Of a DNA stretch of 64,000 nt, positions 5,846-42,736 are shown piece after piece; the first letter of the stretch is position 1, and the number at the start of each line of letters is the position of its first letter. Made by a program: the position numbers and the translations under genes. Under the pieces are notes generated by a model. It was not told the origin of the DNA. It worked only from the letters and a program-made list of their open reading frames with translations, and did no database searches. Origin of the DNA: Candidatus Omnitrophota bacterium (GTDB taxonomy: Bacteria > Ratteibacteria > UBA8468 > B48-G9 > JAFGKM01); contig JAMWDI010000004.1 of the NCBI GenBank assembly GCA_023819375.1, positions 124,001 through 188,000 on the forward strand, in the 5' to 3' direction.

Positions 5846-6483
5846 GATTTTTTTATTTCTGAAATTGCCTTTTCCCTTATTCTGCAAGAAGGACATTTTC
5901 CACACGGCCTTTTTTCATTTTTATAACAGGACCATGTCAACGAAAGATCAAGACCATAGGATATTGCTCTTTTAATTATTTCTTTTTTTGATAAATTTAT
6001 TAGTGGAGCAAGCAATTTTATCCTTTTACCTGAAACTGTTTTTTTTGTTGCAACATCTATAAGTTTTTGGTATCTTTTTATATATATAGGTCTACAATCA
6101 GGATATCCTGAAAAATCAACAGAGTTTACGCCTATAAAAATTGCATCTGCAGAAATACTTTCTGCATAACCAAGTGCAAGTGAAATAAAAATTGTATTTC
6201 TTGCAGGAACATAAGTTGAAGGTATCCCTCTAATCTTTCTTTCAGGTATTTTAATTTCATCTCTTGTAAGTGCTGATTTTAAAAATTTTAAATTTATCTT
6301 CAAAATTAAATGTTCTTCTGCTTTTAAAAACTTTGCAACTTTCTTTGCAGATAATAATTCTTTTCTGCTCTTCTGCCCATAATCAATTGTTAAACAATAA
6401 ATTTTATATCCTTTTTTCTTTGCAATATAAGCAGATAAGAAACTGTCAATACCACCTGAAATTAAACAAACTGCTTTTTTCAT
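5824..6483 (-). CDS. queC: 7-cyano-7-deazaguanine synthase QueC
   Basis: 219 residues. ATP-dependent conversion of 7-carboxy-7-deazaguanine to preQ0 in queuosine biosynthesis. The PP-loop SGGIDS is at residues 9-14, the TIDYGQKS strand follows, and the C-terminal zinc site is formed by cysteines in WSCYKNEKRPCGKCPSC. Its ATG overlaps the stop of queE by four bases, so the two genes are coupled. Its 3' end overlaps metF on the opposite strand by 22 bases. QueD and QueF are not in the window. QueG-like proteins lie at 11-19 kb, but that cluster is too large and divergent to be explained as queuosine synthesis. Confidence 0.95.
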   Translation of the reverse strand: MKKAVCLISGGIDSFLSAYIAKKKGYKIYCLTIDYGQKSRKELLSAKKVAKFLKAEEHLILKINLKFLKSALTRDEIKIPERKIRGIPSTYVPARNTIFISLALGYAESISADAIFIGVNSVDFSGYPDCRPIYIKRYQKLIDVATKKTVSGKRIKLLAPLINLSKKEIIKRAISYGLDLSLTWSCYKNEKRPCGKCPSCRIREKAISEIKKSQIKPER

Positions 6484-7076
6484 TTTATTTTTAAAATTTT
6501 TTGAATTTGAAATCTAAAATACCAGTTTTTTTCTGGATTTTTTTTTAAAAAATTAACAATATCTTTAGAAATCTTTTTGTCATTATTAAGTGGTTGTAAA
6601 ATAACAGGACTTTCTATTTTTCTATCAATAAATTCAAAAGTCTTTTTATTAATAATAACATATTTAAACTCATTGGCTACTTTTTTAAATTTGTTGTCGT
6701 AACCTGAAGGATGATAAATTTTACCTTCTTCTTTTGGACTTACCGTTATCCAATGAAATTTTATATCTCTCCATATAGTCCCATTTGTTTCAACTGATAT
6801 CCAGTAGTTTTTTCTTTTAAGGAATTCAAAGAGATATTCTATTTCCTGTAAATAAGGTTCTCCTCCTGTAAAGCACACTCTTTTGCAATCAAATTTTTCT
6901 ACCTCTTTTAATATTTCTCTTGCCTCCATTTCTTTACCATTTTCCCAAGCATATTTTGTATCACACCATGAACATCTTAAATTGCATCCTGTAAATCTTA
7001 TAAAAACAAATGGCAATCCCTGAAGTAATCCCTCTCCCTGAATAGAATAAAAGATCTCATTTATCCGATATATCAT
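6480..7076 (-). CDS. queE: 7-carboxy-7-deazaguanine synthase QueE (radical SAM)
   Basis: 198 residues. Radical SAM enzyme converting 6-carboxytetrahydropterin to 7-carboxy-7-deazaguanine. IFYSIQGEG near the N-terminus is a QueE hallmark, and the cluster motif C-x3-C-x2-C appears as CNLRCSWC, followed by TGGEPYLQ and VETNGT. I chose the ATG at 7076: the first conserved residues follow at once, and a promoter (7101-7129) predicts transcription beginning near 7094, which rules out the longer in-frame start at 7157. Only a weak GGA ribosome site is seen. Translationally coupled to queC. Confidence 0.93.
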   Translation of the reverse strand: MIYRINEIFYSIQGEGLLQGLPFVFIRFTGCNLRCSWCDTKYAWENGKEMEAREILKEVEKFDCKRVCFTGGEPYLQEIEYLFEFLKRKNYWISVETNGTIWRDIKFHWITVSPKEEGKIYHPSGYDNKFKKVANEFKYVIINKKTFEFIDRKIESPVILQPLNNDKKISKDIVNFLKKNPEKNWYFRFQIQKILKIK

Positions 7077-7100
7077 TTTCAATCCAGAAACTTTAAAATA

Positions 7101-7129
7101 ATTTAAATAACTATATCTTTTACTGTCAA
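7101..7129 (-). promoter_or_regulatory. Promoter of queE-queC
   Basis: Read on the minus strand, TTGACA (7129-7124) is followed after 17 bases by TTAAAT (7106-7101), giving a predicted start of transcription near 7094 and an 18-base leader. A perfect -35 with a fair -10. It decides the queE start codon. Confidence 0.55.
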
Positions 7130-7150
7130 ATTTTTCACAATATACAAAAC

Positions 7151-7179
7151 TTGTCAAAAAAAATTGATCATGGTAATAT
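7151..7179 (+). promoter_or_regulatory. Promoter of tRNA-Asn
   Basis: TTGTCA at 7151-7156, a 17-base spacer, then TAATAT at 7174-7179; transcription would begin about six bases before the mature tRNA. The -35 overlaps a TTGACA on the other strand (7157-7152). Confidence 0.5.
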
Positions 7180-7191
7180 ATAAAAATAGGT

Positions 7192-7263
7192 TCCGGTGTA
7201 GCTCAACGGTAGAGCAGGCGGCTGTTAACCGCAAGGTTGTAGGTTCGAATCCTACCACCGGAG
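7192..7263 (+). tRNA. tRNA-Asn (anticodon GTT)
   Basis: Cloverleaf read by eye: acceptor stem TCCGGTG pairs with CACCGGA (7256-7262); D stem GCTC/GAGC; anticodon loop CTGTTAA with GTT at 7224-7226; five-base variable loop; T stem GTAGG/CCTAC around TTCGAAT. The discriminator is G at 7263. The outermost anticodon-stem pair is G-A. The full CCA tail is not encoded (CCT follows), so it must be added after transcription. It is isolated between genes on the opposite strand. Confidence 0.97.
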
Positions 7264-7402
7264 CCTTTTTATAAGGTAGGAAAATAAAATCTGTTATATA
7301 TAAATCAAGATTAACAATTGGGAAAAGGCGAAAAGAAAAATTTTTTGACTTTCATAATTTTCTATTTTATAAATCTAAAAAATCTCTGATAAGAAATAGA
7401 AT

Positions 7403-9292
7403 TTAACCAAGGGTGAAAGATATAGGGGTTTTTGTTAACCAACTTATAATAATCCATAAACCAGCAGCAGTGAAACTTCCAAAAACCATCCCAAGGAAAA
7501 ATATTTTTACTGTAGAGTAAACTTTTGCTCCACCGTATTTTAATATTACTGTCTTTGCTATCCAAGCAAGAAAAATAGAAAACCAAGTATGATAAATAGG
7601 ATGGGGTATTCCAATAGTAAGTCCAATAGGTGATATAGGCCATCCAGGAATTTTACTTCTTGCTAAAAGAATTAAAATCATTAAGAGTGCTCCAACTATA
7701 GCAAATAAAAACTGTTTTTTACCGAAGATTACAGGATCTCTCATTATGTTTTTTATATACTCAGCCATAAAACTTGATGCATATCCGAATTGCCAGGAAG
7801 ACAAATTTATTCCGCCAAATTTATAAGCAAGGAAAAGAACTGTAATTGTTGAACTTATTAAAGTAAATATTATAGAAAGGAAAATGCCTAAAAGGAGTTT
7901 ATTTAAATTTAGTTTAAAATTGTTAGCAAGTTTCAATCCATTAGATGTTGAAGCCATAACAGAAGTTCTAATGTCTGCAGCCCAAGGGAAAGTTAAACCG
8001 AGAGAAACCAATCCTTGATTTCCAATTAATTTGGAACCAAACGTATAGATTGTTACTGCTGAAGGGATAATTGGAGCCCTATAATATGCAAGTCCTGTTT
8101 GTGAAATAATTCTTGTTAGTCCAAGGAAGATAAGAATAGTTATTATAATAAAGTATATGGAAATTGAGAGTTTAAGCCCTGATTTACTTATCCACCAAAC
8201 ACTGAAGATAAAGCAAAAAATAAATCCCCAGAAAGAAATTTTGTATAAAAATTTTTCTTCTTCCATATCTTTTATTTTTCCTATGCTAATTAGAAATATC
8301 TGTTTTAAATGTCTTCTTGCAAACCATAAACAACTTAATGATAAAATCATTAAAGCACCGAAGGACTGAAAAGCAACTTCTTCACAGGCTGGATCTGAAT
8401 AGGGAAGAAACATTCCTATAGAATAACCAGTCATTTTTAAGAAACCAGTTTCAAGAATAAAGATAAAAGCAAAAAGCCAAACACTTAAAAGAACATCTTT
8501 TGGTATTAAAAAAGCAAGTCCAATAACTTCAAATCTAACAGATAATATTAAAGAAATTGAGCGCCTGAAGATAGGGAGAGATTTACTAAGCACAGGGCCT
8601 TTAAAAATAGGAAAAAGATTTGAAAGTCCAATAAGAGAATAAAGGATAAATGGAATAAGAAAGCCAAGATAAAATAACTTATTTTTATGGATTGGATTTT
8701 CTTCATTTGCCATTTCAATAACAGGTTCAGTTAAGGGATAAGTTAATTTTTCTCTTTCAATCCACTGCTTACTTAACATTAGAATTAGAAAAATTAACAA
8801 AAAATAAAAAATAATTATGAATATGTACCAATTAAATAAAGGAGTTATCCATTGATTCCATGGAATTTTTGTATTTTTAGGAAGTCCTTCATATAAATAC
8901 CAAATTGTTTTGTAATCCTTTGGAAATAAATGGGATGGTAAGTAAGGATGAATCATTTCATCCCATCTATTAGTTGGTGTTGCATAGTAAAAAATACCAC
9001 CAAGAAGACCTATTAAATTCATAGTAAATCCCCAAGATGGAATAGCGCAAGCAACAATCATCATTATATAAACTGTAATAAGTTCAGATGGTGTTAAATA
9101 TAATTTTTTTATAAATTTTTTACTGAATTGATTAAAAAGTAGGATATAAATAAAAAAAATAAAAATTGCCCAACCAGTTGAATAATCAGCGGCTAAAGGA
9201 GAACCATGGATATAAAGAACATTTAAAGGTTCAAGGACTCCAATCAAAATACAAAAAATTATACCAATTATTATTGATTTTAAAGAAACCAT
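7403..9292 (-). CDS. Large polytopic membrane protein, DUF6785-like (OPT-type transporter)
   Basis: 629 residues with about 14 hydrophobic segments spread over the whole length, including paired helices near residues 1-60, 150-175, 205-225 and several between 350 and 620. Sequence character (YLTPSELITVYIMMIVACAIPSWG, LGLTRIISQTGLAYYRAP) fits the DUF6785/DUF6784 transporters related to oligopeptide transporters that are common in Lentisphaera- and Planctomycete-like genomes; the substrate is unknown. It stands alone, with its own promoter only a few bases before the start codon (9302-9329). Nothing nearby identifies the substrate. The family call is moderate; that it is a transporter is likely from topology. 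Confidence 0.75.
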   Translation of the reverse strand: MVSLKSIIIGIIFCILIGVLEPLNVLYIHGSPLAADYSTGWAIFIFFIYILLFNQFSKKFIKKLYLTPSELITVYIMMIVACAIPSWGFTMNLIGLLGGIFYYATPTNRWDEMIHPYLPSHLFPKDYKTIWYLYEGLPKNTKIPWNQWITPLFNWYIFIIIFYFLLIFLILMLSKQWIEREKLTYPLTEPVIEMANEENPIHKNKLFYLGFLIPFILYSLIGLSNLFPIFKGPVLSKSLPIFRRSISLILSVRFEVIGLAFLIPKDVLLSVWLFAFIFILETGFLKMTGYSIGMFLPYSDPACEEVAFQSFGALMILSLSCLWFARRHLKQIFLISIGKIKDMEEEKFLYKISFWGFIFCFIFSVWWISKSGLKLSISIYFIIITILIFLGLTRIISQTGLAYYRAPIIPSAVTIYTFGSKLIGNQGLVSLGLTFPWAADIRTSVMASTSNGLKLANNFKLNLNKLLLGIFLSIIFTLISSTITVLFLAYKFGGINLSSWQFGYASSFMAEYIKNIMRDPVIFGKKQFLFAIVGALLMILILLARSKIPGWPISPIGLTIGIPHPIYHTWFSIFLAWIAKTVILKYGGAKVYSTVKIFFLGMVFGSFTAAGLWIIISWLTKTPISFTLG

Positions 9293-9301
9293 GTTAGAGT
9301 T

Positions 9302-9329
9302 ATTTTACTTATAATTTTTCTGATGTCAA
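9302..9329 (-). promoter_or_regulatory. Promoter of the membrane transporter (near-leaderless)
   Basis: Minus strand: TTGACA (9329-9324), 16-base spacer, TAAAAT (9307-9302). The start codon at 9292 follows the -10 by nine bases, so the mRNA should have only a few untranslated bases. No ribosome site is present. The rest of 9293-9499 is AT-rich with no gene seen. Confidence 0.6.
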
Positions 9330-9499
9330 AATTAACTCTCTTAAATATTTGTCTTTCTAATTCTCTCATTTTTCTTAATCTTCAACTTTTCTCTTACGTT
9401 TTCTCTGCATGTAAAATTTCCATCCCTTTACAATATTTTTCCCTTGATTTTCCTTTAAATTTGAGACACATTCCTTAAAAGTTTTAACAGTTTTAAAAA

Positions 9500-10654
9500 T
9501 TATTTTTTCTGACTATTGTTTAACTTTACATTGTTAAAAAGAATATTTTTGCAATTGCGACATATTATACTATTATCTGAAAAATTTTCCATTTCTAAAT
9601 TATTAAATGAGATATTATGAATTTCTATTTCGCTGTTTCCCTCTATAGTTAAAGGTCCTCCACTTTTTATAATTTTTATATTAGAAAAATTTATATCTGA
9701 AATTCTTTCCAATTTAATTCCTTCTTCAACAGTTATCCATATAGGATTTAATTTGCTTTCAATTATTACATTTGAAAATAAAATATCATGAACATTTGCG
9801 CAACCCTTACTATTTTCCAGTAAATAAACTTTTGGAAATTGAAATATAATTCCTCTTGTTCCTTCTATTATTAAATTTTTAAATACACAATTTTTTATTT
9901 CTCCATCAGAAGGACATTCAATTCTTATTCCATTACAATCTGTTTTTAAAATACAATTTGAAACAGTTATATTTTCACAACTAACCTCTTCTTTATAAAA
10001 TTGTTTTATACAACGAACTGCAATACAATCATCTTGAGTATCCATAATACAATCACTTATAACAACATTTTTACAACTGTCAACATCTATTCCATCTATG
10101 TTTCTCATTCTTCTATCCCCGTATATTTTAACCTTATGAATATTTATATTCTCGCATTTCATTAACCAGATTGTCCAACAAGCAGAATTTACAAAAGAGA
10201 TGCCTTCAAAAAAAACATTTTTACAATTATAAAACATAACTATTCTTGGCCTTGGAATTTCTGGTTTTTTATAATAATCTTTATAAAAAGAAAGTCCAGA
10301 ACCATTTATTTCTCCACTTCCTGTTATTCCTAAATTTTCAGAATCAACTGCAATAATAAGTGCATTTTTTGTAATTTCTTTTTTGGGCTCTATCTTTTCC
10401 ATAATAAAACCTTCTGCATCAAGTTCCTTATAGTCATTTAAACTTTCACTTCCGATAATTTTGCTTCCGTTTTCAAGATAAAGTTCAACATTACTTTTAA
10501 GAAAAATTGTTCCTGTTTTATATATTCCAGGTTGAAATATAATTCTTCCTCCTCCATTTTTATAACAGGTATCTATTGCTTTTTGTATCTTTTCTGTATT
10601 AATCGTTTTTCCATCTGGTCTTACCCCAAATTCAGTTATTCTATAAGTACTCAT
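9500..10654 (-). CDS. GH28-like right-handed beta-helix protein with altered active site
   Basis: 384 residues of polygalacturonase (GH28) type, without a signal peptide, hence probably cytoplasmic. The N-terminus FGVRPDGKTINTEKIQKAID and PGIYKTGTIFLKSN are typical of the fold. The catalytic region shows NIDGID near 188 and TQDDCIA near 206, matching two aspartate motifs, but the usual G-H-G motif reads C-N-G (CNGIRIE, near 240) and the following R-I-K reads R-I-E. It may act on oligosaccharides with changed chemistry or be inactive. An AAGGAAAG ribosome site precedes the ATG, whose ATGA overlaps the stop of a reading frame continuing from the upstream gene. Last gene of the IclR-led operon. 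Confidence 0.8.
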   Translation of the reverse strand: MSTYRITEFGVRPDGKTINTEKIQKAIDTCYKNGGGRIIFQPGIYKTGTIFLKSNVELYLENGSKIIGSESLNDYKELDAEGFIMEKIEPKKEITKNALIIAVDSENLGITGSGEINGSGLSFYKDYYKKPEIPRPRIVMFYNCKNVFFEGISFVNSACWTIWLMKCENINIHKVKIYGDRRMRNIDGIDVDSCKNVVISDCIMDTQDDCIAVRCIKQFYKEEVSCENITVSNCILKTDCNGIRIECPSDGEIKNCVFKNLIIEGTRGIIFQFPKVYLLENSKGCANVHDILFSNVIIESKLNPIWITVEEGIKLERISDINFSNIKIIKSGGPLTIEGNSEIEIHNISFNNLEMENFSDNSIICRNCKNILFNNVKLNNSQKK

Positions 10655-10749: not shown

Positions 10750-11721
10750 TTATTTATCTTTCGGTTTTACTCCCGGTATTCCCATCCCTTTATTTCTTCC
10801 CTTTTCATAGTATCCTTTATAAACATTACTACATATTCTCCATTCAGAAGAAGTTTCTTTACAATCTTTGTATCCACATATTTCTTTTGCTGATTTAATC
10901 CTCTTGAACAACCTTTCAAATAATTTCTTTGCGGTTAATATCATACCATAATTCATATCAAGTTTGAATAAAACATCTAAATCTTTTTTCTCATCTCTTA
11001 AGTTCATAGAAAAACCACCTATACAAAGATTTTTTTCAGGTATATAAGCACTACAAGGAGGACATATCATACAGGGACCTTCAATAAGTTTAATTGGTAT
11101 TTCTGGATTTTTTCTTATTCTTTCAATAACTTCATAAAGATTATCCTCTAATATAGGTTGGTTTTTGCTTTCGGAAAAGCAAACCATACACATAAGATGA
11201 TGGGGTCTTATTTTTAGAATTTTTGATTTATAAATTTTTTTAACAGATATCTTTTTTGATTTTTTTCTTTCTTCAAGTGAACGACCCGGAAAAATTGAAT
11301 TAATACCTTCTTCTCTTAATTTTTCATAATCTGATTTTTCTGAATATTGACATCCTTTCCAGATTTTTGAATTTGGAATTCCTTTACATATCTCTTTTGT
11401 AGTTTCAATTGAATTAAATAATTTTTCTATAATAAATCTTGCAGGCATAATCGCTCCAGGGAAAAGGCCTATTAAACGAAGTATATCAAAATCCTGTTTT
11501 TTTCTGAATAATTCTTTTTTGTTTTTGATATTTTGAGGATTTTGATAAGAATAACTACCAGCAACTCTACAAACCAACATGATAGGTCTTTCTGGATTTT
11601 TAATTATTTTGTCAAGAATTGCTCTCAATTTTTTATCTTCTTTTGAATTTTTAAATCCTCTCTTTAATTTACATAAAATACAAAATAATTGATAAGGATG
11701 AACTTTAATATATTTTCTCAT
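10750..11721 (-). CDS. Cysteine-rich protein, tandem DUF1284-like
   Basis: 323 residues in two related halves. The second half begins near residue 168 with IRPHHLMCMVCFSES, the signature of DUF1284, and continues with GPCMICPPCSAY, where cysteines could bind a cluster. The first half begins HPYQLFCILCKL and keeps the arrangement with fewer cysteines, so it looks like a diverged duplicate. Both halves share a phrase of the type P-I-x-L-V/I near the middle and a later CKGI/CGYKDC. Function is unknown. It lies between QueG-like iron-sulfur genes and the GH28-like gene with two bases to its upstream neighbour, so it belongs to the operon. The frame continues beyond its stop (see next downstream entry). 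Confidence 0.6.
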   Translation of the reverse strand: MRKYIKVHPYQLFCILCKLKRGFKNSKEDKKLRAILDKIIKNPERPIMLVCRVAGSYSYQNPQNIKNKKELFRKKQDFDILRLIGLFPGAIMPARFIIEKLFNSIETTKEICKGIPNSKIWKGCQYSEKSDYEKLREEGINSIFPGRSLEERKKSKKISVKKIYKSKILKIRPHHLMCMVCFSESKNQPILEDNLYEVIERIRKNPEIPIKLIEGPCMICPPCSAYIPEKNLCIGGFSMNLRDEKKDLDVLFKLDMNYGMILTAKKLFERLFKRIKSAKEICGYKDCKETSSEWRICSNVYKGYYEKGRNKGMGIPGVKPKDK

Positions 11722-11723
11722 AA

Positions 11724-12770
11724 TTATCCCTTCTTAACTTTATATGGCAATAACCATCTTTTTCTTTTTATAAATTCCCCTCCTTTAAATCTCTGTTCAA
11801 TAACTTCTTTTTTCTCAAGGTAATTAAAACAACTTCTCATACAACCTCTTGAACCACATATTCCAAAACTTCCACCTTCTCCCCATTTTTGTAACATGGC
11901 ATGCCCTTCTATGATATAACCCGATGGGAACTCCTCTGTTTTTCTCCATCTTCCTGTTGATAAAGTCCAGCAAAATTTATATGCAGTCTCTTCTGAAAAA
12001 TCCTGTTTTCTTGCGTCTATATTCCAGCCAGGGAAATCTTTATGTATAAAAGGAGAAACTCTTGAATCACCCCCATGATAACTTAATGTACATTTTCCAA
12101 GATGTATATCAGCCCATTCATAAACATAGTCCTCAATTTTTATCTGGATTTTTTTATTTTCTTTTATATGAGGTATTGCATAAGAAGGACAGTCATTTAC
12201 ACATTCCATACATCTTTTACAGATACTACCTGGTTTTATAAGTGGATCTGGTTCAACTTCAAGGTCAGTTATAATTGCATGTAATCTCTGTCTTGGTCCA
12301 AATTTTTTAGTTAAAAAAACTTTACTCCATCCAATTTCCCCAAGTCCAGCACAAATACCTGCAATCCTTATAGCAAGATGAACATCAGGAGGTGGGAAAT
12401 TTTTTCTTAATGGTTTTACTGGAGGTTGGGCTTCTGGTACTCCTGGATAATAAGGGACTGCTTCATATCCAAAATCTTCAATAAAACAGGCAAGTTGATA
12501 AAGAGGTTCAGGAATAAAAAAAGTATTTAAAAGACCATGATAATCAAAATAAGTATAAGAAATCCAGTTTGTCCCTTCTTCTATTCCACGCCAACCACCC
12601 CTTAATATTCTTTTTCCAACAACTATAACTGTTTTACCTTCTGGAAATATGTTTTTCGGATTCATTCTTTCTGGAGCATTTTTGAATCTTTCAATATTTG
12701 CAAAACCAATTAAATCAAGTCCAAACTTATAACCTGTTTCTCTTATTAACTCTTTCGTTAGTTTTTTCAT
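11724..12770 (-). CDS. QueG/reductive-dehalogenase-like 4Fe-4S protein (copy 4)
   Basis: 348 residues. The N-terminal region (GLDLIGFANIERF, then FPEGKTVIVVGKRI) and the segment GLGEIGWSKVFLTKKFGPRQR at 150-170 are shared by all QueG-like proteins in this cluster, as is the ferredoxin motif CKRCMECVNDCP near 195. A late GICGSRGCMRSCFNYLEK could supply ligands of a second cluster. QueG and reductive dehalogenases with this plan use cobalamin. No Tat signal is present, so it is cytoplasmic. Start set at ATG 12770 because AGGAG precedes it; the longer TTG start at 12788 would lie before that site. It has an insertion around 225-290 not seen in copy 3. Confidence 0.75.
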   Translation of the reverse strand: MKKLTKELIRETGYKFGLDLIGFANIERFKNAPERMNPKNIFPEGKTVIVVGKRILRGGWRGIEEGTNWISYTYFDYHGLLNTFFIPEPLYQLACFIEDFGYEAVPYYPGVPEAQPPVKPLRKNFPPPDVHLAIRIAGICAGLGEIGWSKVFLTKKFGPRQRLHAIITDLEVEPDPLIKPGSICKRCMECVNDCPSYAIPHIKENKKIQIKIEDYVYEWADIHLGKCTLSYHGGDSRVSPFIHKDFPGWNIDARKQDFSEETAYKFCWTLSTGRWRKTEEFPSGYIIEGHAMLQKWGEGGSFGICGSRGCMRSCFNYLEKKEVIEQRFKGGEFIKRKRWLLPYKVKKG

Positions 12771-12777
12771 TTTTCTC

Positions 12778-13626
12778 CTATTCTTCAATTATCTCGCCAC
12801 TTTTATCAATTTTCCATACAGGTCTTTTTCTAAATTTTTCATTAAATAAATTTTTTATTCTTTTTGTTTCTTCAAGATGAAAAAGACAGGTTCTTGAGCA
12901 TAAAGCAGCAATTCTATCTGGTTTTCCATTTTCATAATACATATTTGGTAAGACACCGTTTTTACATTTTTTACATATTTCATAATCAATTTCTGCAACT
13001 ATCATCTTTTTATCACATATTTCAATTTCTTTCTCTTTTTCCTTTATTGCTCCAAGTGGACATATCTTTAAACATTCTTTACATAAATCACATATATTTT
13101 CTTTCTTTATTTGATCTGGTTCAATTTCTGCATCTGTAAGTATTATTTGAAATCTTTGCCTTGGACCAAATTCTTCAGTTAAGAATATCCTACAATATCC
13201 AATTTCTCCAAGTCCTGCTCTAATTGCTGTATCTTCAATATCTATTAAAACATTTGGTGCTGGTTTCCCTTTTTTAACAGGTATTCCCATTGGTGGAACT
13301 TCAATTGGTATATCAGGCAAAGGAACTGCTTCATATCCGTTATCCTCAAGAAATTCACATATTTTAAAAGTTGTTAAAGCAAGTATTCTATTGTTTAACC
13401 ATTGATATCCATATAGATTATACAGGTGAAATTGTGTTCCTTCTTCAATTCCTCTTAAAGCCCCTCTTGTTATTCTCTTTCCTATTACAATTATACTTTT
13501 TACTTCTGGGAATATACTTTCTGGGTGGTGTTGTTTGTTAATTCCTTTAAACCTATCTATGCTTGCAATACCTATTAAATCTGCTTTAACTTCTTTTGCA
13601 AACTCTATTAATCTTTCTTTTTCCAT
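12778..13626 (-). CDS. QueG/reductive-dehalogenase-like 4Fe-4S protein (copy 3)
   Basis: 282 residues, the shortest member of the cluster. It shares VKADLIGIASIDRFKG at the N-terminus, ALRGIEEGTQF near 60, GLGEIGYCRIFLTEEFGPRQR near 140-160, and the cluster motif CDLCKECLKICP near 183. Further cysteines in YEICKKCKNG and ALCSRTCLFHLEE near the C-terminus could bind a second cluster. Eight bases separate it from copy 4. The GIEEGT phrase is shared with copies 2 and 4 but not with the fused protein, which groups these three. Function is unknown beyond likely redox chemistry with a corrinoid. Confidence 0.75.
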   Translation of the reverse strand: MEKERLIEFAKEVKADLIGIASIDRFKGINKQHHPESIFPEVKSIIVIGKRITRGALRGIEEGTQFHLYNLYGYQWLNNRILALTTFKICEFLEDNGYEAVPLPDIPIEVPPMGIPVKKGKPAPNVLIDIEDTAIRAGLGEIGYCRIFLTEEFGPRQRFQIILTDAEIEPDQIKKENICDLCKECLKICPLGAIKEKEKEIEICDKKMIVAEIDYEICKKCKNGVLPNMYYENGKPDRIAALCSRTCLFHLEETKRIKNLFNEKFRKRPVWKIDKSGEIIEE

Positions 13627-13642
13627 AAATAAAATCTTCCTT

Positions 13643-14674
13643 TTAAAATTTTTTAACTATGACTTCTTTAAAAACATTTTCACAGTAAGAACAATTTTGA
13701 CATAGTTTATTACATTTTGTTATTTTTTCAAACCAATCATCTGGAAATCTTGAATTTTCAATTATATAAGGATATAAAATTTTACTATGAGATGGTTCAA
13801 ATAAATCAAGTAAGTTGCCTTGATATTTTTCATCATAATATGCTTTTATAACTTTTTCAGGGTCCTGATTTGTCCTTGTTGCAAGTTTAACAACATCAAA
13901 ATATTTTTCATAATGATGCAAATCTTCTGGCCTTATCCACGAAGAATATGAAATTAAATATTTCCAGTTTTCTTTTTCTTTGTAAAAAGACCAGCAATTA
14001 CCAGGTATATTATCTGTCAAATTTGCTTTTGTAAATATTTCTGCTTCATGTGAAATAACATTATCATGAAAAGATTGAACAGGGCAGAAATTTATACAAC
14101 CACTATTTACAAGAATAGATAATTTTTTCCCTTTTTTATTACACCAATCTTTAATTTCTTCTATTCTTTCAAAATCCCTATTATACTCTCTTTGCATAAC
14201 AAAATCATCAAATAAATCTTCTAATTGCTCCATCTGTTTTATTTTTCCGATTCTCATATTTACACTTGCTCTTACTTCAATATCTTTAAAATTTTTCTTA
14301 ATTATATATGCAATAACTGGAGAGAAAGAAGTTATAGAATCAAGACCTATATTTTCCTGTAAATAATCAATAATTGAAATAACCATATTAGTAAGATTTA
14401 TTGATAATGAATTTTCACCCCAGCAGGAAGCATTCAAAAGTAAATTAAGTTTTATTCCAAGTTTTTTTATTTTTTTTAATTCATATTCAAGTTGTTTCTG
14501 TACAAACCAATTTATATATCCAACCTTCTCAGCAATCGGTCCTCTTCCGCTGGGTAAATTAAGCCATGGGAAATAAACTTCTTCAATTCTATCCTTATAT
14601 TTTTCAACAATATCTGAAAAAATTTGCTCCTCTTCTTTAAACTGATATCCAATAGAAAATTTTATTTTTCCCAT
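13643..14674 (-). CDS. Peptidase U32-like TIM-barrel protein with cysteine-rich tail
   Basis: 343 residues. The central segment SGCINFCPVQSFHDN near 193 and the overall pattern of alternating strands and helices (KIKFSIGYQF start, EVYFPWLNLPSG, NLLLNASCWG, EVRASVNMRIG) fit the U32 family, whose members such as UbiU/UbiV and tRNA hydroxylation factors carry a [4Fe-4S] cluster and act in oxygen-independent redox chemistry. The C-terminus has C-x3-C-x2-C-x2-C (CNKLCQNCSYC), a likely cluster site. It overlaps the neighbouring QueG-like gene by 13 bases and lies within the operon, so it probably works with it. The U32 call rests on pattern only. Confidence 0.55.
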   Translation of the reverse strand: MGKIKFSIGYQFKEEEQIFSDIVEKYKDRIEEVYFPWLNLPSGRGPIAEKVGYINWFVQKQLEYELKKIKKLGIKLNLLLNASCWGENSLSINLTNMVISIIDYLQENIGLDSITSFSPVIAYIIKKNFKDIEVRASVNMRIGKIKQMEQLEDLFDDFVMQREYNRDFERIEEIKDWCNKKGKKLSILVNSGCINFCPVQSFHDNVISHEAEIFTKANLTDNIPGNCWSFYKEKENWKYLISYSSWIRPEDLHHYEKYFDVVKLATRTNQDPEKVIKAYYDEKYQGNLLDLFEPSHSKILYPYIIENSRFPDDWFEKITKCNKLCQNCSYCENVFKEVIVKKF

Positions 14675-15576
14675 TCAATATACCATACCTTTCTTTTTCT
14701 AAAAGGTTCCTTAAATTTGTTTTTTAATTTTCCTTCTTTTTCAAGATGTATCATACATGCTCTTATACACCCTCTTGCTCCTTCAATTGCTCTGGAATAT
14801 ATAATGACAGAACTTAGTTCTCCTATAAATGGATTGTATTTTTTATAAGGTGCCAATCCTTGAAATCCTTTTGTGCATGCGTCAACGTTTAGTTTTCCCC
14901 ATTCTACTTCAGTTCCTATCGCTTTAAATCTAACTTTAACCGTTTCTTTTAAACTTATTGCTCCTGCTGAACATTCTTTTACACATAACATACATCTATC
15001 ACAAATTGGTGGCCCTTCATAAATAGGATCTGGCTCAAGAGGAGCATCTGTTAAAATACATGCAAATCTCTGCCTTGGCCCAAATTCAGGTGTTAATAGT
15101 AGTTTACTATATCCAATCTCTCCAAGTCCTGCAAGGTATGCAGCAATCCTAAAATGAATAAATACATCAGGAGCAGGTTTTTCAGGAGATACAGAACAAG
15201 ACCAGTTTTCTTTGGGTTTTCCTGTTGCATAATCAATAGCGGGCCAGTTGTAATAATCATTAGGTATTGGTGTTGCTTCATATCCATAATCTTCAATAAA
15301 TCTCGCCAAATGATAAAGAATAAAAGGCATATAAATCATATTTATACTTCCATATCCCTGTGAAGAATAGGAGAGAAAATATGTTCCTTCCTCTATACCC
15401 CTTAAAGTTCCTCTTGGTATTCTTAAAGCAAGTACTATTAAAACTTTAGCATCTGGATTTATATATCTTGGGTCCATTTGCTTTGGTGCTCCTTCAAATC
15501 TGTTTACATCTGCAATTCCAACCAAATCTGCTCCTAATTTTTTTGCTACTTCTTTTACTTTTTTTGATGTTAACAT
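14662..15576 (-). CDS. QueG/reductive-dehalogenase-like 4Fe-4S protein (copy 2)
   Basis: 304 residues. Shared landmarks are LGADLVGIADVNRFEGAP at 14-31, TLRGIEEGTYF, GLGEIGYSKLLLTPEFGPRQR near 160-180 and the ferredoxin-like CDRCMLCVKEC near 205. The proline that normally follows the fourth cysteine is serine here. Later cysteines VDAC and GARGCIRACMIHLEKEG can provide ligands of a second cluster. GGAGGAGG precedes the ATG, one of the strongest ribosome sites in the cluster. Likely cytoplasmic and corrinoid-dependent by family; the substrate is unknown. Confidence 0.76.
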   Translation of the reverse strand: MLTSKKVKEVAKKLGADLVGIADVNRFEGAPKQMDPRYINPDAKVLIVLALRIPRGTLRGIEEGTYFLSYSSQGYGSINMIYMPFILYHLARFIEDYGYEATPIPNDYYNWPAIDYATGKPKENWSCSVSPEKPAPDVFIHFRIAAYLAGLGEIGYSKLLLTPEFGPRQRFACILTDAPLEPDPIYEGPPICDRCMLCVKECSAGAISLKETVKVRFKAIGTEVEWGKLNVDACTKGFQGLAPYKKYNPFIGELSSVIIYSRAIEGARGCIRACMIHLEKEGKLKNKFKEPFRKRKVWYIEWEK

Positions 15577-15592
15577 TTTTACCTCCTCCTTT

Positions 15593-17095
15593 TTATCTTT
15601 TAATTCTTATTTCATCTTCTCCATCTTTTGTTTCTACAACAAACTCAGCATCTCTTGGAATATCTTGAGGACTTCCTTTTACATAACATAGTGGCTCTTT
15701 ATTTAAATTTATTCCTTCTTTTATAAGTTTTTCTCTTAAAATTTCTGTATCAAGTTTTCTTGGCGAAATATTTTCTTTTATTGAAAGAGCAGACGCAGTT
15801 CCAGCAGCATGTCCCATAGTTATACATGTCATTATCAGTCGTGTTCCTGACTGTGCTTCAAAATCAGTTGAAATACATCTACCTGCAACAAGAAGATTAT
15901 CTATTTTTTTAGGAATAAGACATCTATAAGGAATTTCATAATACTGGCCTGGTTTTAAGTATGCTCTATATTTCCCTTTTGGATTATTTTTTACACAACA
16001 TATTCTTCCATCTTCTCTTTCTTTATCTGTACAAAAAGCAGGTTCAATTGGTTGAGATAAATGAGTATGTTTTATATGAGGAAGATCATCTATTGGATTA
16101 TGTATATCAAAACCATGAGTGTCTCTTGCTATTGCATCTTTAAATTTTCTTGCAAGAGCTATATCTTTTCCTGTTAATTTATATTCACCAACTATCCTCC
16201 TTGACTCTCTAATCCCCAAAATTGATGCAGTATAACTTAAAAATGCCTTTTCAAATCCAATTACATTTTCTCTATAAAATTCAACAAGTTTCTGTATCTG
16301 GTCTCTCTGTTCAATTACTATTCTTGTTAAATCTTCTGCATCTGTTGTTCTACATTTTCTACTATGGGCAGTACACACATATACTTCTGTTTTTTCTTCT
16401 GGTCTATTTGGGAATGATCCTAAATATCCTTTTTCTACAAGTCGTGGCAATTTCCCTTCTTTTACTGCTTTTTCTATTTTCATCTGAACAGTTGAGTAAA
16501 AGTCAGATGAAGAAAATGAATTTAAATCAACATTTGACATAACAAAATCAAGAGAAACTGCTTGATTATAACCATCCATCAAATCCCATCCAGTCTCAAC
16601 AGGAACTCCTGCAAAATATGAAATTTCTGCATCTCCTGTACAATCAATAACTCTTTTTGCTAAAATTGCACTTCTTCCTGAAATATTTTGAATTATTACT
16701 CCTTTTATTTCATTATTTTCAACTATTGAATCAATAACATAAGTCCAGTATAAAATTTTAACACCTGACTCAATTGCCATTTTTTCCATGATATATTTTG
16801 TTATTTCAGGATCACAAATTCTATTTTCTCCAAGTCCTCTTTTTTCCTTTAACCTTTCAAGCAATTCTTTACCAATTCCTTCAGGATAACCAGCCATATA
16901 ACATACAAGACCTAAAGTTACAAGTCCACCAAGAGCACCATATTTTTCAACAAGCATTGTATTTGCTCCATTTCTACTTGCACTTATAGCAGCACCAAAT
17001 CCAGCAGTTCCTCCACCAACTACAAGAACATCAACTTCATATTTAACTTTTACTTCTTCATTAAACTTTATTTTTCCTCCTTCTATCTTTACCAT
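15593..17095 (-). CDS. FAD-dependent oxidoreductase (FAD_oxidored type)
   Basis: 500 residues. The dinucleotide-binding motif VLVVGGGTAGFGAA is at about 24-37, followed by LVEKYGALGG, and the C-terminal FAD contact is LLVAGRCISTDFEAQSGTR near 420. The middle holds RVIDCTGDAEIS, usual for this family, in which flavin oxidises or reduces small organic acids or sugars. HSRKC and ICCVKN give scattered cysteines with no clear cluster. It overlaps the fused QueG-like gene by seven bases, so it is co-translated and probably passes electrons to or from that protein. A second, separate family member lies at 41219-42574. Confidence 0.85.
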   Translation of the reverse strand: MVKIEGGKIKFNEEVKVKYEVDVLVVGGGTAGFGAAISASRNGANTMLVEKYGALGGLVTLGLVCYMAGYPEGIGKELLERLKEKRGLGENRICDPEITKYIMEKMAIESGVKILYWTYVIDSIVENNEIKGVIIQNISGRSAILAKRVIDCTGDAEISYFAGVPVETGWDLMDGYNQAVSLDFVMSNVDLNSFSSSDFYSTVQMKIEKAVKEGKLPRLVEKGYLGSFPNRPEEKTEVYVCTAHSRKCRTTDAEDLTRIVIEQRDQIQKLVEFYRENVIGFEKAFLSYTASILGIRESRRIVGEYKLTGKDIALARKFKDAIARDTHGFDIHNPIDDLPHIKHTHLSQPIEPAFCTDKEREDGRICCVKNNPKGKYRAYLKPGQYYEIPYRCLIPKKIDNLLVAGRCISTDFEAQSGTRLIMTCITMGHAAGTASALSIKENISPRKLDTEILREKLIKEGINLNKEPLCYVKGSPQDIPRDAEFVVETKDGEDEIRIKR

Positions 17096-19314
17096 TTTTT
17101 CTTCTCCCCTTTATACTTACAATTTCTTATACATTCTTCACAAATATTTAAATGCCTTTTTTGAACCCCTAATTTTAAATTCATTAAATTTTCAATTAGT
17201 TTTCTGGTTTTATTTTTTGTAGGAACTTTAAAATCTACATTTATACCCATATATTTTGGCCCTTCTTTACCTATAAGTCCATATCTTTTAGCCCAATCAC
17301 AAGAAAATTCATCAATTACAGGTATTTCAAAAATTTTATTTTCTATTTCAATTTTCACATTTTTTCTTTTTATTGCAGAGGTTGGGCAGTTTTTTATACA
17401 TTCATAACAATCTTCACAAAAATTTTCACCATTATAAAGAGGATCATTTTCAAACTCAAAATCAGTTATTATACTAAAAAATCTCTGTCTTTGCCCAAAT
17501 TCTTTAGTTATAGGTACTCCATTTTTTCCAATATATCCAAGTCCTGAAAGCAAAACAGAATAAGAATTACTTCTATTATCTGGCAAAAACCCTCTTGAAC
17601 TTAAAATTTTTGATGAAAGACCAGTTAAATCATAAGAATAAATTCCTTTATATCCACAATCATTTAATTTTTTTATAATTTTATAGGCAATGTCTGTTAA
17701 AAGATTTAATGATTCAAATTGACTGAAAGCATAAGGTCCAACTGTTTCTGCAGGTGTTATTTTTGCTGTATCAAGACAAGCATCGGGATAATGAAGTCCT
17801 ATAACAATTACTGATTTTGCATCTTTTAAATAATCTTTTGGTTCTTTTAAATTAATTTTTTCTCTTTTAATTATAGGACTTATAGGTGCATAAATGTGAG
17901 ATATATCATATACCATTTCAACTTCTTCAGGCAAATTAAATTTTTTTAAAAATTCTTTTTTAAACTTCTCAAATCTATTGATGTTGAAAAATCCAACTAA
18001 ATCTGCACCACATTCTTTACAGAAATTCCTAAATTTTTCTTTTTCAATTTTTTCTTTTTCAATTTTCCTTTTAATTTTAATTTCTTTTAGTTTTGCACTT
18101 ACAAGGATTGTTGAGAAAATTGTATCTTCTTCCCATATCCCAATTTTTTGAGCGGTAAGATTATCATCTATCTTTGTTCCAGTTATTCCAGAATATCCAT
18201 TTATATCAAAATAATGTGCAATATCAAAAGAGGCGTATTGTATTAATCTATGTTTTATATAATTTTCAATTTCTGTGTCATAATCTTTAGGTTTTTTTAT
18301 TCCTATTGAAATTACTGAAGAAACATCTGGCAAATGTAATTTGGGATTTATTGAAAAATCATTTTTAAAGAAATTCACATTCTTTATACAAAGGAAATCA
18401 ATCAAATATTTATCAAAAATTTTCTTAATTTCCTCAATTTTTATTTCCTTCTTTTCCTTTTTTCTTCTTGGTGCTCTACAATAATTTTTATCATAATATC
18501 TTTTACTTGGAACCATACAGAATTTTAGGCAACATCCTTCTTCTCCTGCAAAAAGTCCATATTTTTCAAGATTTTCAATTATTACATTCTCATCTATTTT
18601 TTCAGGTATTTTTAAAAATAGATTAAGACAGAAATTTTCAGCCCATCCACATCTCCATTTATTTGTATCTGGGAACTTAAATATTCTACCATCTATTTCT
18701 ATTTCATTTATTTTTTTGACTTCCTTTCTAAATGAATCTGTTGGACAATTTTTAACACATTCCATACATCTATCACATAATTTTTCTCCTTCATACATTG
18801 GATCTGGAATAAGTTCTGCTGATGTAATGATTGTAACAAGGCGAACCCTTGGTCCAAATTCTGGATGCAAAAATAAGCCACTCCATCCAATTTCACCAAG
18901 TCCACAAGCAACAGCAGCATACCTGTGAGCAATGTCTGGAGCAAAATGTATTTTTAAATCCTTATATCCTTTATATCTCCAAATATTGCTTGAAACAATA
19001 GGAAGTGTATCATAACCTTTGTTTTCAAGAAATTTTGCCATTAAAAATGAAATATCATCAAGTTTTGGATTCATAACTGAACTTTGACTTCCATAAGGAC
19101 CTATATTATGAGGAGTGGGCTCTCCACCAAGTTCAACACTGGCATCAAGATGATGGATACCGCAAACAATAACACTCTTCGCACTTGGCAATAAATCTTC
19201 TGGACTCATTCTTTTTGGAGCATTTTTAAATCTCTCAATACTTCCAATCCCTACTATATCTGCACCAAGTTTTTTTGCATATTCTTTAACTTCTTTTGTT
19301 AAATTTTCATTCAT
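17089..19314 (-). CDS. Fused QueG/reductive-dehalogenase-like protein, two full modules
   Basis: 741 residues, more than double the usual length. Module A (1-290) has LGADIVGIGSIERFKNAP, GLGEIGWSGLFLHPEFGPRVR and CDRCMECVKNCP near 198. A linker region (290-425) resembles the N-terminal part of the fold (LPDVSSVISIGIKKP, YFDINGYSGITGTKIDDN) but has no cluster motif. Module B (425-741) begins CKECGADLVGFFNINRF and has GLGYIGKNGVPITKEFGQRQR and CEDCYECIKNCP near 650, ending with CEECIRNCKYKG. So it reads as two working modules with a decayed partial copy between them. It overlaps the IclR gene by four bases (ATGA) and is the first structural gene of the operon. Confidence 0.77.
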   Translation of the reverse strand: MNENLTKEVKEYAKKLGADIVGIGSIERFKNAPKRMSPEDLLPSAKSVIVCGIHHLDASVELGGEPTPHNIGPYGSQSSVMNPKLDDISFLMAKFLENKGYDTLPIVSSNIWRYKGYKDLKIHFAPDIAHRYAAVACGLGEIGWSGLFLHPEFGPRVRLVTIITSAELIPDPMYEGEKLCDRCMECVKNCPTDSFRKEVKKINEIEIDGRIFKFPDTNKWRCGWAENFCLNLFLKIPEKIDENVIIENLEKYGLFAGEEGCCLKFCMVPSKRYYDKNYCRAPRRKKEKKEIKIEEIKKIFDKYLIDFLCIKNVNFFKNDFSINPKLHLPDVSSVISIGIKKPKDYDTEIENYIKHRLIQYASFDIAHYFDINGYSGITGTKIDDNLTAQKIGIWEEDTIFSTILVSAKLKEIKIKRKIEKEKIEKEKFRNFCKECGADLVGFFNINRFEKFKKEFLKKFNLPEEVEMVYDISHIYAPISPIIKREKINLKEPKDYLKDAKSVIVIGLHYPDACLDTAKITPAETVGPYAFSQFESLNLLTDIAYKIIKKLNDCGYKGIYSYDLTGLSSKILSSRGFLPDNRSNSYSVLLSGLGYIGKNGVPITKEFGQRQRFFSIITDFEFENDPLYNGENFCEDCYECIKNCPTSAIKRKNVKIEIENKIFEIPVIDEFSCDWAKRYGLIGKEGPKYMGINVDFKVPTKNKTRKLIENLMNLKLGVQKRHLNICEECIRNCKYKGEKKKW

Positions 19315-20063
19315 ATTTTATCTCCAAGTTTTAATGTAATTTCTTCACCTGCTTTTTTTAATTCATTTATAATTCTTTCTCTATTTCCTTTTCTAAACCT
19401 TACTGTTGGTAGATAAACACCAAGAGAGGCAATAATTTTTTTATCAGAACTGAAAATTGGAACTCCAATTGCTACTGTTCCTTCTTTTTCTATAATTTCA
19501 ATTTTCCTTTTTCTTATTTTTTCAAATTCCTTTTTTAAATCTCTAAAATTTCTAATATTGTTCCAGGTTTCTTTGGGATATCCATTCTTTCTTATATACT
19601 CCTTAACCTCTTTTTCAGGTAAATATGAAAGCAGAATTCTTCCTGTTGCAGTTGAATAACAGGATGCTTTCTGGAACATATTCAAATTTACATTTAAAAG
19701 ATTATTTTCATAACTAACTTGTGCAATTGTATATCTTTCCCCCTTATAAAAAATACCAAGAACAACAGATTCTTTTATATTTTCTGCCAAATTTTTCATA
19801 ACAGGTTCAGATATTTTAATTAGAAAATTTTTGCTTAAAAGAGGATAAAAAATATTTAATAATTTTTCAGAAATCCTATATTTTTTTGTATTTTTGTCTT
19901 TCTCAAGGTATCCGAGAGAAAGTAATGTTGATAAAAGAGAGTGGGTTGTAGTAATTTTTAGATTTAAAAATTTTGAAATTTCTCCAACACTTAAACCTTC
20001 ATTTTCAGAATTTGAAATTATCTCTATTATTTTCATTATTTTTTCTACAACTTTTACTTTCAT
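19311..20063 (-). CDS. IclR-family transcriptional regulator
   Basis: 250 residues: winged helix-turn-helix at 1-60 (LSVGEISKFLNLKITTTHSLLSTL) and an effector domain with GERYTIAQVSYEN, YSTATGRILLSYLPEKEV and VAIGVPIFSSDKKI, the usual IclR order. I set the start at ATG 20063; longer in-frame starts up to 20300 run through the promoter and divergent gene and give non-homologous sequence. It is the first gene of the QueG-like operon and overlaps the next by four bases, so it probably controls its own operon. A palindrome at 20070-20092 lies across its -10 box. The effector is likely a small acid or sugar derivative by family habit; unknown here. Confidence 0.9.
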   Translation of the reverse strand: MKVKVVEKIMKIIEIISNSENEGLSVGEISKFLNLKITTTHSLLSTLLSLGYLEKDKNTKKYRISEKLLNIFYPLLSKNFLIKISEPVMKNLAENIKESVVLGIFYKGERYTIAQVSYENNLLNVNLNMFQKASCYSTATGRILLSYLPEKEVKEYIRKNGYPKETWNNIRNFRDLKKEFEKIRKRKIEIIEKEGTVAIGVPIFSSDKKIIASLGVYLPTVRFRKGNRERIINELKKAGEEITLKLGDKI

Positions 20064-20187: not shown

Positions 20188-20679
20188 ATGAGAAATTTAT
20201 TTTTTCTTTTTTTTCTTTTTACACTTATGGGGTGTGCATCTAAAGAAGCAAAAAAAGCACCCGAGGTAGTATTTAATACAATTGATGGGAAAGTAATCAA
20301 AATAACAGATTATAAAGGAAAGAAAATTGTTTTAAATTTCTGGTCTGTTAATTGTTCTGCCTGTATAAGGGAAATACCAGAAATTGTGGATTTTTATAAT
20401 GAAAATAAGGAAAAAGTTGGAGTTATTAGTGTTGTTATTTTAAGTTCTAAAAAAGATGTTGAAGATTTGATAAAAAAATATAAAATAAATTTTCCAATCT
20501 GTTTAGGTGATGAAAAAATTGCTGATTTATTTGGTGGAATAATATTTTTACCTACTACTTTTATAATTGACGAAGATGGATATATAAGATTAAAGATAAA
20601 TGGAGCGATAGGAAAAGTTGAATTGGAAAAAATTTTAAAATCTCTTGATTATAATGAGAAGGCCAAAAAAACAGAGTAA
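20188..20679 (+). CDS. TlpA-like thioredoxin lipoprotein
   Basis: 163 residues. The N-terminus is a short hydrophobic signal ending LMGC, a lipobox with Cys at residue 15, so the protein should be anchored outside the cytoplasmic membrane. The thioredoxin-fold domain has NFWSVNCSACIREIP near 50, giving the redox pair C-x2-C (CSAC), and the cis-proline strand FLPTTFIIDEDG near 118. It is a thiol-disulfide oxidoreductase of the TlpA/ResA type. AAAGGAG precedes the ATG, with a TATAAT further upstream near 20163. Its 3' end overlaps convergent ccdA by 45 bases; CcdA is the usual supplier of electrons to such proteins, so the pair fits functionally. Confidence 0.88.
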   Translation: MRNLFFLFFLFTLMGCASKEAKKAPEVVFNTIDGKVIKITDYKGKKIVLNFWSVNCSACIREIPEIVDFYNENKEKVGVISVVILSSKKDVEDLIKKYKINFPICLGDEKIADLFGGIIFLPTTFIIDEDGYIRLKINGAIGKVELEKILKSLDYNEKAKKTE

Positions 20680-21309
20680 AACACCAATTGAAATTTCAAT
20701 TTTTTCGTAATAATTTTTCATTTTATTCAAAAGTGAAGTCAATCCTTTTATGAATATAGAAAGAATTATAAAAGGTATTCCCATCCCAAAAGAATAAGAG
20801 AATAAAAGCAAAATTCCCCTTTTGACAGTTTTTTCCATTGAAGCAAGTATTAAAATTGAAGAAAGGACAGGTCCGACACAAGGAGTCCAGGCACCTGCAA
20901 GTCCCATTCCAAGTATAAATGCATTTAAATATCCAATATTTATTTTTTTAAATCTAAATCTTCTTATTTCATAAAATTTTCTGATTTTTAAAATGCCAAT
21001 GATATGTAAACCAAAAATTATCATTAAAATTCCACCTATATATCTTAAAAAATTTTTTCCAGTCCCAATGAAATTACCTAAAAATGAAGCAGTCGCTCCA
21101 AGTGAAACAAAAACAGTTGTAAAACCAAGAACAAAGAGAAAACTTGGAAATAAGATTTTACTGTAAGAAATTTTTTTGTTTTTGAATTCTTCAATTGAAT
21201 AACCTGTAATATAGGATAAATAAACAGGAATTAAAGGTAAAACGCAGGGACTGAAAAATGAAAGTAATCCACTGAAGAAACAGAAAAATACAGAGTAATT
21301 TTTAATCAT
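20635..21309 (-). CDS. ccdA: CcdA-type thiol-electron transporter
   Basis: 224 residues, six hydrophobic segments. The two conserved cysteines lie in FFSPCVLPLIPVYLSYITG near 20 and AGAWTPCVGPVLSS near 140, the signature of CcdA/DsbD membrane domains that pass electrons from cytoplasmic thioredoxin to extracytoplasmic thiol proteins. Its start overlaps the end of the upstream HAD gene by eight bases, so the two are co-transcribed. It converges on and overlaps the TlpA-like gene, its likely partner. No cytochrome c genes are nearby, so it need not act in cytochrome maturation. Confidence 0.92.
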   Translation of the reverse strand: MIKNYSVFFCFFSGLLSFFSPCVLPLIPVYLSYITGYSIEEFKNKKISYSKILFPSFLFVLGFTTVFVSLGATASFLGNFIGTGKNFLRYIGGILMIIFGLHIIGILKIRKFYEIRRFRFKKINIGYLNAFILGMGLAGAWTPCVGPVLSSILILASMEKTVKRGILLLFSYSFGMGIPFIILSIFIKGLTSLLNKMKNYYEKIEISIGVLLCFFGLLIIIKRF

Positions 21310-42574: not shown

Positions 42575-42598
42575 TTTTTAAAATTTTAAAATTTTTAA

Positions 42599-42627
42599 AT
42601 GATACAACTTATTTCAAAAAAAATCAA
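42599..42627 (-). promoter_or_regulatory. Promoter of the FAD oxidoreductase
   Basis: Minus strand: TTGATT (42627-42622), 17-base spacer, TATCAT (42604-42599), then an AT-only leader of about 18 bases without ribosome site. Confidence 0.45.
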
Positions 42628-42736
42628 TAGAGGAAAAAAGAATTAAGAGAAATATCATAAGTATTTTAACTCTAATCCAGCATTCTTCTATAAGCACAGA
42701 TTACATTTTTCTTTATTGCTTTTACCTTTTATTAAG

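Follow-up and report, generated by a model that had tools for sequence, protein, structure and literature searches.

Which reaction could call for five related modules of the QueG/RdhA type in a single bacterial operon is the question raised by a 64,000-nucleotide stretch of DNA (contig JAMWDI010000004.1, positions 124,001 to 188,000; hereafter the window) from a Candidatus Omnitrophota bacterium. The host is an uncultured anaerobic bacterium represented by a 1.73-Mb metagenome-assembled genome (MAG) that is 94% complete. To our knowledge, two reactions of class III B12 enzymes have been characterized: dehalogenation and epoxyqueuosine reduction. Those who solved the QueG structure suggested that the class is mechanistically more diverse (PMC4646009). 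We find that the five module classes apparently constitute an undescribed branch, or branches, of the vitamin-B12/iron-sulfur enzyme family, whose known members strip halogens from pollutants (reductive dehalogenases, RdhA) or complete a tRNA base (QueG). With a probability of roughly 0.6 we read them as cytoplasmic, inducible, corrinoid-dependent reductases, with a small organic molecule as substrate and Q2-Q1 pairs as the likely working units.

A preliminary description of the locus had claimed four genes holding five complete modules of one family, and this was confirmed: Q1, Q2 and Q3 are separate genes, and Q4 and Q5 lie within one 741-aa fusion. The operon runs on the minus strand from 20063, the ATG of the IclR gene, to 10750 and consists of eight tightly packed genes, all recovered at the following positions:

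19311..20063, minus strand: IclR-family regulator, 250 aa, first gene of the operon (IclR_C 2.2e-25, HTH_IclR 2.9e-07)
17089..19314, minus strand: fusion of Q4, a half-module and Q5, 741 aa (TIGR00276 87.8 bits, E 6.8e-25; TIGR02486 85 bits; both below cut-off)
15593..17095, minus strand: FAD-dependent oxidoreductase (PF12831 2.5e-105)
14662..15576, minus strand: module Q3, 304 aa (TIGR02486 52.6 bits)
13643..14674, minus strand: U32-like iron-sulfur (Fe-S) protein, 343 aa, partner of Q3 (PF01136 19.6 bits against a cut-off of 22.4)
12778..13626, minus strand: module Q2, 282 aa (TIGR02486 48 bits)
11724..12788, minus strand: module Q1, 354 aa, proposed catalytic subunit (TIGR02486 50.1 bits, E 3.6e-13)
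10750..11721, minus strand: cysteine-rich tandem DUF1284 protein, 323 aa, a local addition (PF06935 3.8e-09)

Counted from the lower end, neighboring genes are separated by +2, -11, +16, -13, +16, -7 and -4 bp. Within the fusion, Q4 covers residues ~1-285 and Q5 residues ~430-741, and the stretch between them (~290-425) is a third, half-size module that is degenerate and lacks the Fe-S motif. Promoter-like sites were no commoner than in shuffled sequences, and terminator-like sites were fewer.

By sequence the modules belong to the RdhA/QueG superfamily and to neither of its families, as judged by the curated cut-offs of TIGR00276 (QueG, 200 bits) and TIGR02486 (RdhA, 160 bits). The module genes score 25-88 bits with the former and 48-85 bits with the latter, none reaches a cut-off, and they fall 75 to 112 bits short of that for RdhA; the family matches of Q1 and the fusion are nevertheless well beyond chance, as their E-values show. 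Among solved structures, RdhA 8q4h and 4uqu, NpRdhA 4ras and QueG 5d08 are nearest in sequence. The modules had been set apart from QueG from the outset, and this holds: the genome has its own, separate QueG (C2:276045-276890), which scores 264 bits. An RdhA above cut-off was found in 0 of the 13 genomes searched in the order of the host.

The predicted structures agree with this placement. AlphaFold2 models were calculated for Q1 (91 homologues; pLDDT 94, pTM 0.91) and for the fusion (pLDDT 90.2, pTM 0.92), and the fold of Q2 and Q3 is taken from their sequence homology to Q1. The Q1 model matched RdhA 8q4h with a Z of 16.6 (234 residues, 3.9 Å), QueG 5d6s with a Z of 16.2 (211 residues, 3.0 Å), PceA with 16.0 and NpRdhA with 15.5. 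For the fusion, Z reached 17.9 with QueG and up to 17.0 with RdhA, where the aligned rows span either the Q4 or the Q5 side, so that RdhA and QueG are the best matches of both models (Z 15-18). CblC and CblD follow as the next fold matches (Z about 9 for CblC with Q1), and nitroreductases reach a Z of 4-8 across the two models, the FMN nitroreductases staying below 5 with Q1. These proteins hold B12 or FMN in the same core fold but have no ferredoxin domain, and their structural match is much weaker. The architecture of the superfamily, a B12-binding nitroreductase-type fold followed by a ferredoxin domain with two [4Fe-4S] clusters, was found in Q1 and the fusion by model and in Q2 and Q3 by sequence, and the cluster and core motifs align across all five modules. 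The fold of Q1 and the fusion is thus predicted to be of the B12-reductase type, and from fold and superfamily together we consider it probable that the modules bind a corrinoid.

In the phylogeny the modules stand outside the QueG and RdhA clades. A first tree of 81 rows, including modules, QueG and RdhA, placed Q2, Q3, Q4 and Q5 each on one side of a branch with SH-aLRT supports of 97-99 (97 for the Q2 clade and 98 for the Q3 clade); Q1 as a class is weakly supported (52), and Q1-Q3 are joined at 98. QueG (97 here, 97-99 over the two trees) and RdhA (88) form separate groups, and no module falls within the QueG group. In the second tree, built without long branches, the module classes hold. 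Two other uncharacterized QueG/RdhA-like proteins, both on plasmids (L178 5926-7269 from Priestia, annotated as SCP2 sterol-binding, and L176 5845-6534 from Monoglobus), form long branches in the tree; the plasmid search returned only QueG, RdhA and distant relatives, and the phage search yielded one weak match.

Active-site positions give the modules a dehalogenase-type feature. In the comparison published with the QueG structure, QueG Tyr101 corresponds to PceA Tyr246 and QueG Asp130 to PceA Asn272, and PceA Arg305 has no QueG counterpart (PMC4646009). In a profile alignment with 4uqu, the last arginine of the GPRQR motif of the modules aligns with PceA Arg305; in a joint alignment, this column holds Arg or Lys in 5/5 RdhA references, Leu in 5/5 QueG references and Arg in 67/70 module rows. 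NpRdhA carries GPRSK at the same position, its lysine presumably being Lys488, and a K488Q variant is among the matched PDB entries. The motif by which the family had first been defined is therefore a feature of the dehalogenase type. Tyr83 and Arg168 of Q1 are invariant in 66/66 sequences; Tyr83 sits just before the helix of the catalytic tyrosine, its register to PceA Tyr246 coming from sequence only. In Q2, Asn125 is invariant (38/38) and lies close to the Asn272/Asp130 position, and in Q4 an invariant aspartate, D127, lies near the position of QueG Asp130. A signature common to Q1-Q3, RxxRGxxRGxEEGT, was not seen in Q4, Q5, QueG or RdhA.

The iron-sulfur ligands were scored in 64 loci in which Q1 and Q2 are both present. 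In QueG, after whose structure they were assigned, C184, C187, C190 and C243 bind the distal cluster and C194, C210, C236 and C239 the proximal cluster adjacent to B12 (PMC4646009). The proximal-type cysteines are invariant in both genes, three in Q1 (64/64) and four in Q2 (64/64). The distal set of Q2 is intact in only 33 of the 64 loci, and C2, C3 and C8 are lost together in four; supported tree branches require at least four separate changes to account for the damage. Q1 retains its distal set, except that 11 loci carry Asp instead of C2. Because the distal cluster is so often damaged in Q2 while Q1 keeps its set, we infer that Q1 is the subunit that would receive the electrons. All 11 loci with the Asp replacement have a damaged Q2 (Fisher p 1e-4), but a coupling between the two was rejected, as it is not significant once phylogeny is controlled (3 independent pairs).

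How widely the modules occur was determined by a scan of 84,980 species genomes. As two peptide patterns were used, the counts are lower bounds: at least 80 loci (those kept) in at least 11 named phyla, including Armatimonadota, Bacillota, Planctomycetota, Omnitrophota, Kiritimatiellota, Lentisphaerota, Verrucomicrobiota, Chloroflexota, Spirochaetota and Hydrogenedentota. Of the 71 Q1 genes, 64 have Q2 immediately upstream. Contig ends cut off three of the rest, so that 68 are testable, and the other four deviate from the rule (64/68). Q3 was found in 15 loci and Q4/Q5 in 14, and in most loci with both genes the U32-like gene directly follows Q3. The conserved core consists of the Q2-Q1 pair and a regulator, to which the Q4-Q5 fusion and the Q3-U32 pair are frequent additions. 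A genome of the same genus (G003) has the order IclR, fusion, FAD oxidoreductase, Q3, U32, a second Q3-type module, Q2 and Q1. The host itself carries a second Q4-half-Q5 fusion (L009, C2:4488-6815) that is 47% identical and lacks the other operon genes; an amidohydrolase and GntR-type regulators lie near it. In the Q1-Q2 tree, sequences from Spirochaetota, Lentisphaerota and Kiritimatiellota group at 100, and this mixing of phyla suggests that Q2-Q1 has spread between phyla by horizontal transfer. We also considered a fused Q2-Q1 frame (L088 7746-9491) as evidence for a heterodimer and dropped it, because its junction without the Q1 N-terminus resembles a deletion between paralogues; it is probably such a deletion or an assembly error.

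The operon as a whole is conserved only in part. The IclR control noted at first is borne out, as the IclR gene heads the operon and recurs beside modules in relatives: IclR was found in 14/92 of the neighbors scanned and AraC in 4/92. Three Oscillospiraceae loci, too, have an AraC gene oriented divergently to Q3-U32 or Q2-Q1. The FAD oxidoreductase has a close copy in one locus (L055, 86%) and partial or distant copies in a few others, and no relative of the DUF1284 protein was found among the fetched loci. Of the proposed corrinoid- and flavin-based pathway, the corrinoid half is supported by the B12-type predicted fold of Q1 and the fusion; a flavin basis is not a defining property, because the FAD oxidoreductase occurs in only a subset of relatives. 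We regard this enzyme as an optional neighbor and possible electron donor. DUF1284, GH28, DUF6785 and TlpA were rejected as parts of the system since they are not conserved with other clusters. The U32-like neighbor is present as described and its cysteines are conserved, yet its match to PF01136 stays below the cut-off. It resembles the U32 oxidases (UbiU/UbiV, TrhP, RlhA) in this weak match and in eight cysteines invariant in 18 relatives (at 84, 193, 197, 227, 321, 325, 328 and 331). It differs from them in that its cysteine spacing is not the CX6CX15CX3C of U32 oxidases (PMC11574389) and in an extra C-terminal CX3CX2CX2C.

Several features bear on where the modules would act and in what setting. 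No Tat leader was found in any module protein, nor any hydrophobic anchor segment, and no anchor-like (RdhB-type) gene lies within the packed operon, as had been claimed; the highest 19-residue hydropathy window of the operon (1.68) belongs to the DUF1284 protein. A pair of arginines near the TTG codon at 12788 is followed by no hydrophobic stretch, and the start of Q1 is probably the ATG at 12770 instead, because homologues begin there, so that this pair drops out of the protein. Lacking export and anchor signals, the modules are predicted to be cytoplasmic. Neighbors seen in at most three loci comprise solute-binding family 5 proteins, creatininase, URO-D, GH20, GntR/LacI sensors, arabinofuranosidase and FAD-linked oxidases, a set that fits fermenting, polymer-degrading hosts. 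In three related genomes (L133, L138 and L142) GAPDH and subunits of pyruvate:ferredoxin oxidoreductase come after Q2-Q1 (on L142, after Q1 alone), a run that hints at ferredoxin as a possible electron donor.

From these observations the following mechanism can be proposed. Each module would bind a base-off cobamide, with Q1 as the catalytic subunit and Q2 as its heterodimer partner. Electrons from ferredoxin or a flavoprotein would enter the distal cluster of Q1 and pass through the proximal cluster to cobalt, generating Co(I), which would reductively break a bond of carbon to halogen or oxygen in a small organic substrate; Tyr83 and Arg168 may serve as proton donor and anchor. With electrons entering via Q1, the distal cluster of Q2 would be dispensable. 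The fusion might perform the same chemistry within one chain, the Q3-U32 pair could act on a related or downstream compound, and the IclR protein would sense substrate or product. A more specific version, in which a two-subunit Q2-Q1 corrinoid reductase acts on a non-halide substrate by reductive C-O cleavage (dehydroxylation, deoxygenation or the splitting of an ether) in anaerobic polymer fermenters, is offered tentatively; we weakly favor a C-O compound from plant or polysaccharide fermentation. The corrinoid-protein domains found in the host (PF02310, 94 bits) count for the general mechanism, as do the sugar and polymer neighbors (solute-binding family 5, GH20, GntR/LacI sensors, arabinofuranosidase), though each of these in few loci.

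A number of observations weigh against this picture. The Q2-Q1 heterodimer follows from gene order only, and corrinoid binding, deduced from fold and superfamily, leaves room for an FMN used in the manner of nitroreductases. Only three conserved proximal-cluster cysteines are apparent in Q1, Q3 and Q4, and Q2 has no conserved tyrosine at the aligned position. No cobalamin riboswitch was detected at the gathering threshold in the window. Beside Q2-Q1 there is no conserved transporter or dedicated enzyme from which a substrate could be deduced, and only regulators recur. Support for all modules as one clade ranges from 15 to 90 with the choice of rows, being 15 once long branches are removed, the deep order is weak, and the data do not reject Q4 as sister to QueG (p-AU 0.49); a single third branch is therefore not proven. 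Nearly all relatives are MAGs; going by record titles, all of the named ones are.

Cytoplasmic catabolic reductive dehalogenases proper, acting on natural or anthropogenic organohalides, are the first alternative, and a rather unlikely one. The modules share with RdhA (PceA 4uqu, 8q4h; NpRdhA 4ras) the fold (Z 15-17), the two-cluster ferredoxin motif, the arginine at the PceA Arg305/NpRdhA Lys488 position and, in Q1, a candidate active-site tyrosine, and the Q1 model finds its highest-scoring fold match in RdhA. The missing Tat leader also speaks for them, as catabolic reductive dehalogenases lack Tat signals (PMC13101508). Unlike RdhA, however, the modules fall below cut-off and outside the RdhA clade, have no anchor gene, are short (280-355 aa) and occur as near-obligate neighbors or a two-module fusion; Q1-Q3 carry the RxxRGxxRGxEEGT signature, and the distal cluster is often lost in Q2. 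Their neighbors are peptidases, glycosidases and sugar regulators, and no dehalogenation genes were recognized among those scanned.

A role in corrinoid handling or redox maintenance, be it CblC-like cobamide processing or the reductive reactivation of corrinoid methyltransferases, is improbable. CblC and CblD are the next fold matches, URO-D-type neighbors occur in three loci, and the host encodes B12-binding-domain proteins (PF02310, 94 bits), as do 27/28 relatives of its order. But the Z of about 9 for CblC compares with about 16 for RdhA and QueG, and CblC (MMACHC) lacks the ferredoxin domain (PMC4646009), whose proximal cysteines are invariant in the modules. Catabolism better accounts for the dedicated substrate-type regulators and for clusters with as many as six modules.

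That the modules are QueG paralogues acting on tRNA, other RNA or a nucleotide in a queuosine-type modification deserves very little credence. They resemble QueG (TIGR00276; 5d6s, 5d08) in fold (Z 16-18) and cluster architecture and, in Q4, in the position of D127, and the Q4-QueG grouping is not rejected. The window also holds queC and a QueE-like radical SAM gene (5824-7157) beside a tRNA-Asn(GTT) at 7192-7265, a queuosine-type tRNA, 3-5 kb downstream of the operon. We rejected a queuosine link on this ground, since queC and queE adjoin none of the other clusters fetched. The modules differ from QueG in their arginine where QueG has leucine, a genuine QueG above cut-off is found elsewhere in the genome, and a tRNA base would hardly be expected to come under the control of IclR or AraC. 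Nitroreductase-like flavoproteins with Fe-S domains, whose B12-type fold would now hold FMN, are likewise highly improbable: nitroreductases do share the fold, but at the lower Z given above, RdhA and QueG match far better, and the proximal cysteines and the GLGEIG and GPRQR motifs common to B12 enzymes are retained.

Other genes of the window are recorded for completeness. The 2294-5845 region combines a NiFe hydrogenase large subunit with MTHFR and a methylene-tetrahydrofolate reductase C-terminal-type protein, which suggests an electron supply from hydrogen and one-carbon metabolism. A GH28-type glycosidase and a DUF6785/DUF6784 membrane protein (7403-10654) follow the operon on the same strand and are not conserved with it. 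Just past IclR, a TlpA/ResA-like lipoprotein and a CcdA/DsbD_TM membrane protein (20188-21309) are likely a disulfide-handling pair. A second FAD_oxidored paralogue adjoins a BadF/BcrA-type ATPase and a 2-hydroxyglutaryl-CoA dehydratase-type protein at 41219-44574, another low-potential reductive set.

The surmise that the system is undescribed agrees with the literature, as no account of the Q2-Q1 pair or the module cluster was found in open-access full text, subscription papers being outside the scope of the search. Annotation pipelines may label such proteins QueG or dehalogenase, so that both functions would be overstated in MAG surveys. The multi-phylum set offers genes short enough for expression and a constant core of two genes, its regulator provides a route to the inducer, and the natural variants of the redox chain, in which the distal cluster is lost and the proximal one kept, are useful for asking how electrons reach cobalt. 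If the Q2-Q1 pair is indeed a two-subunit C-O reductase, it would add a third type of reaction to those of class III B12 enzymes.

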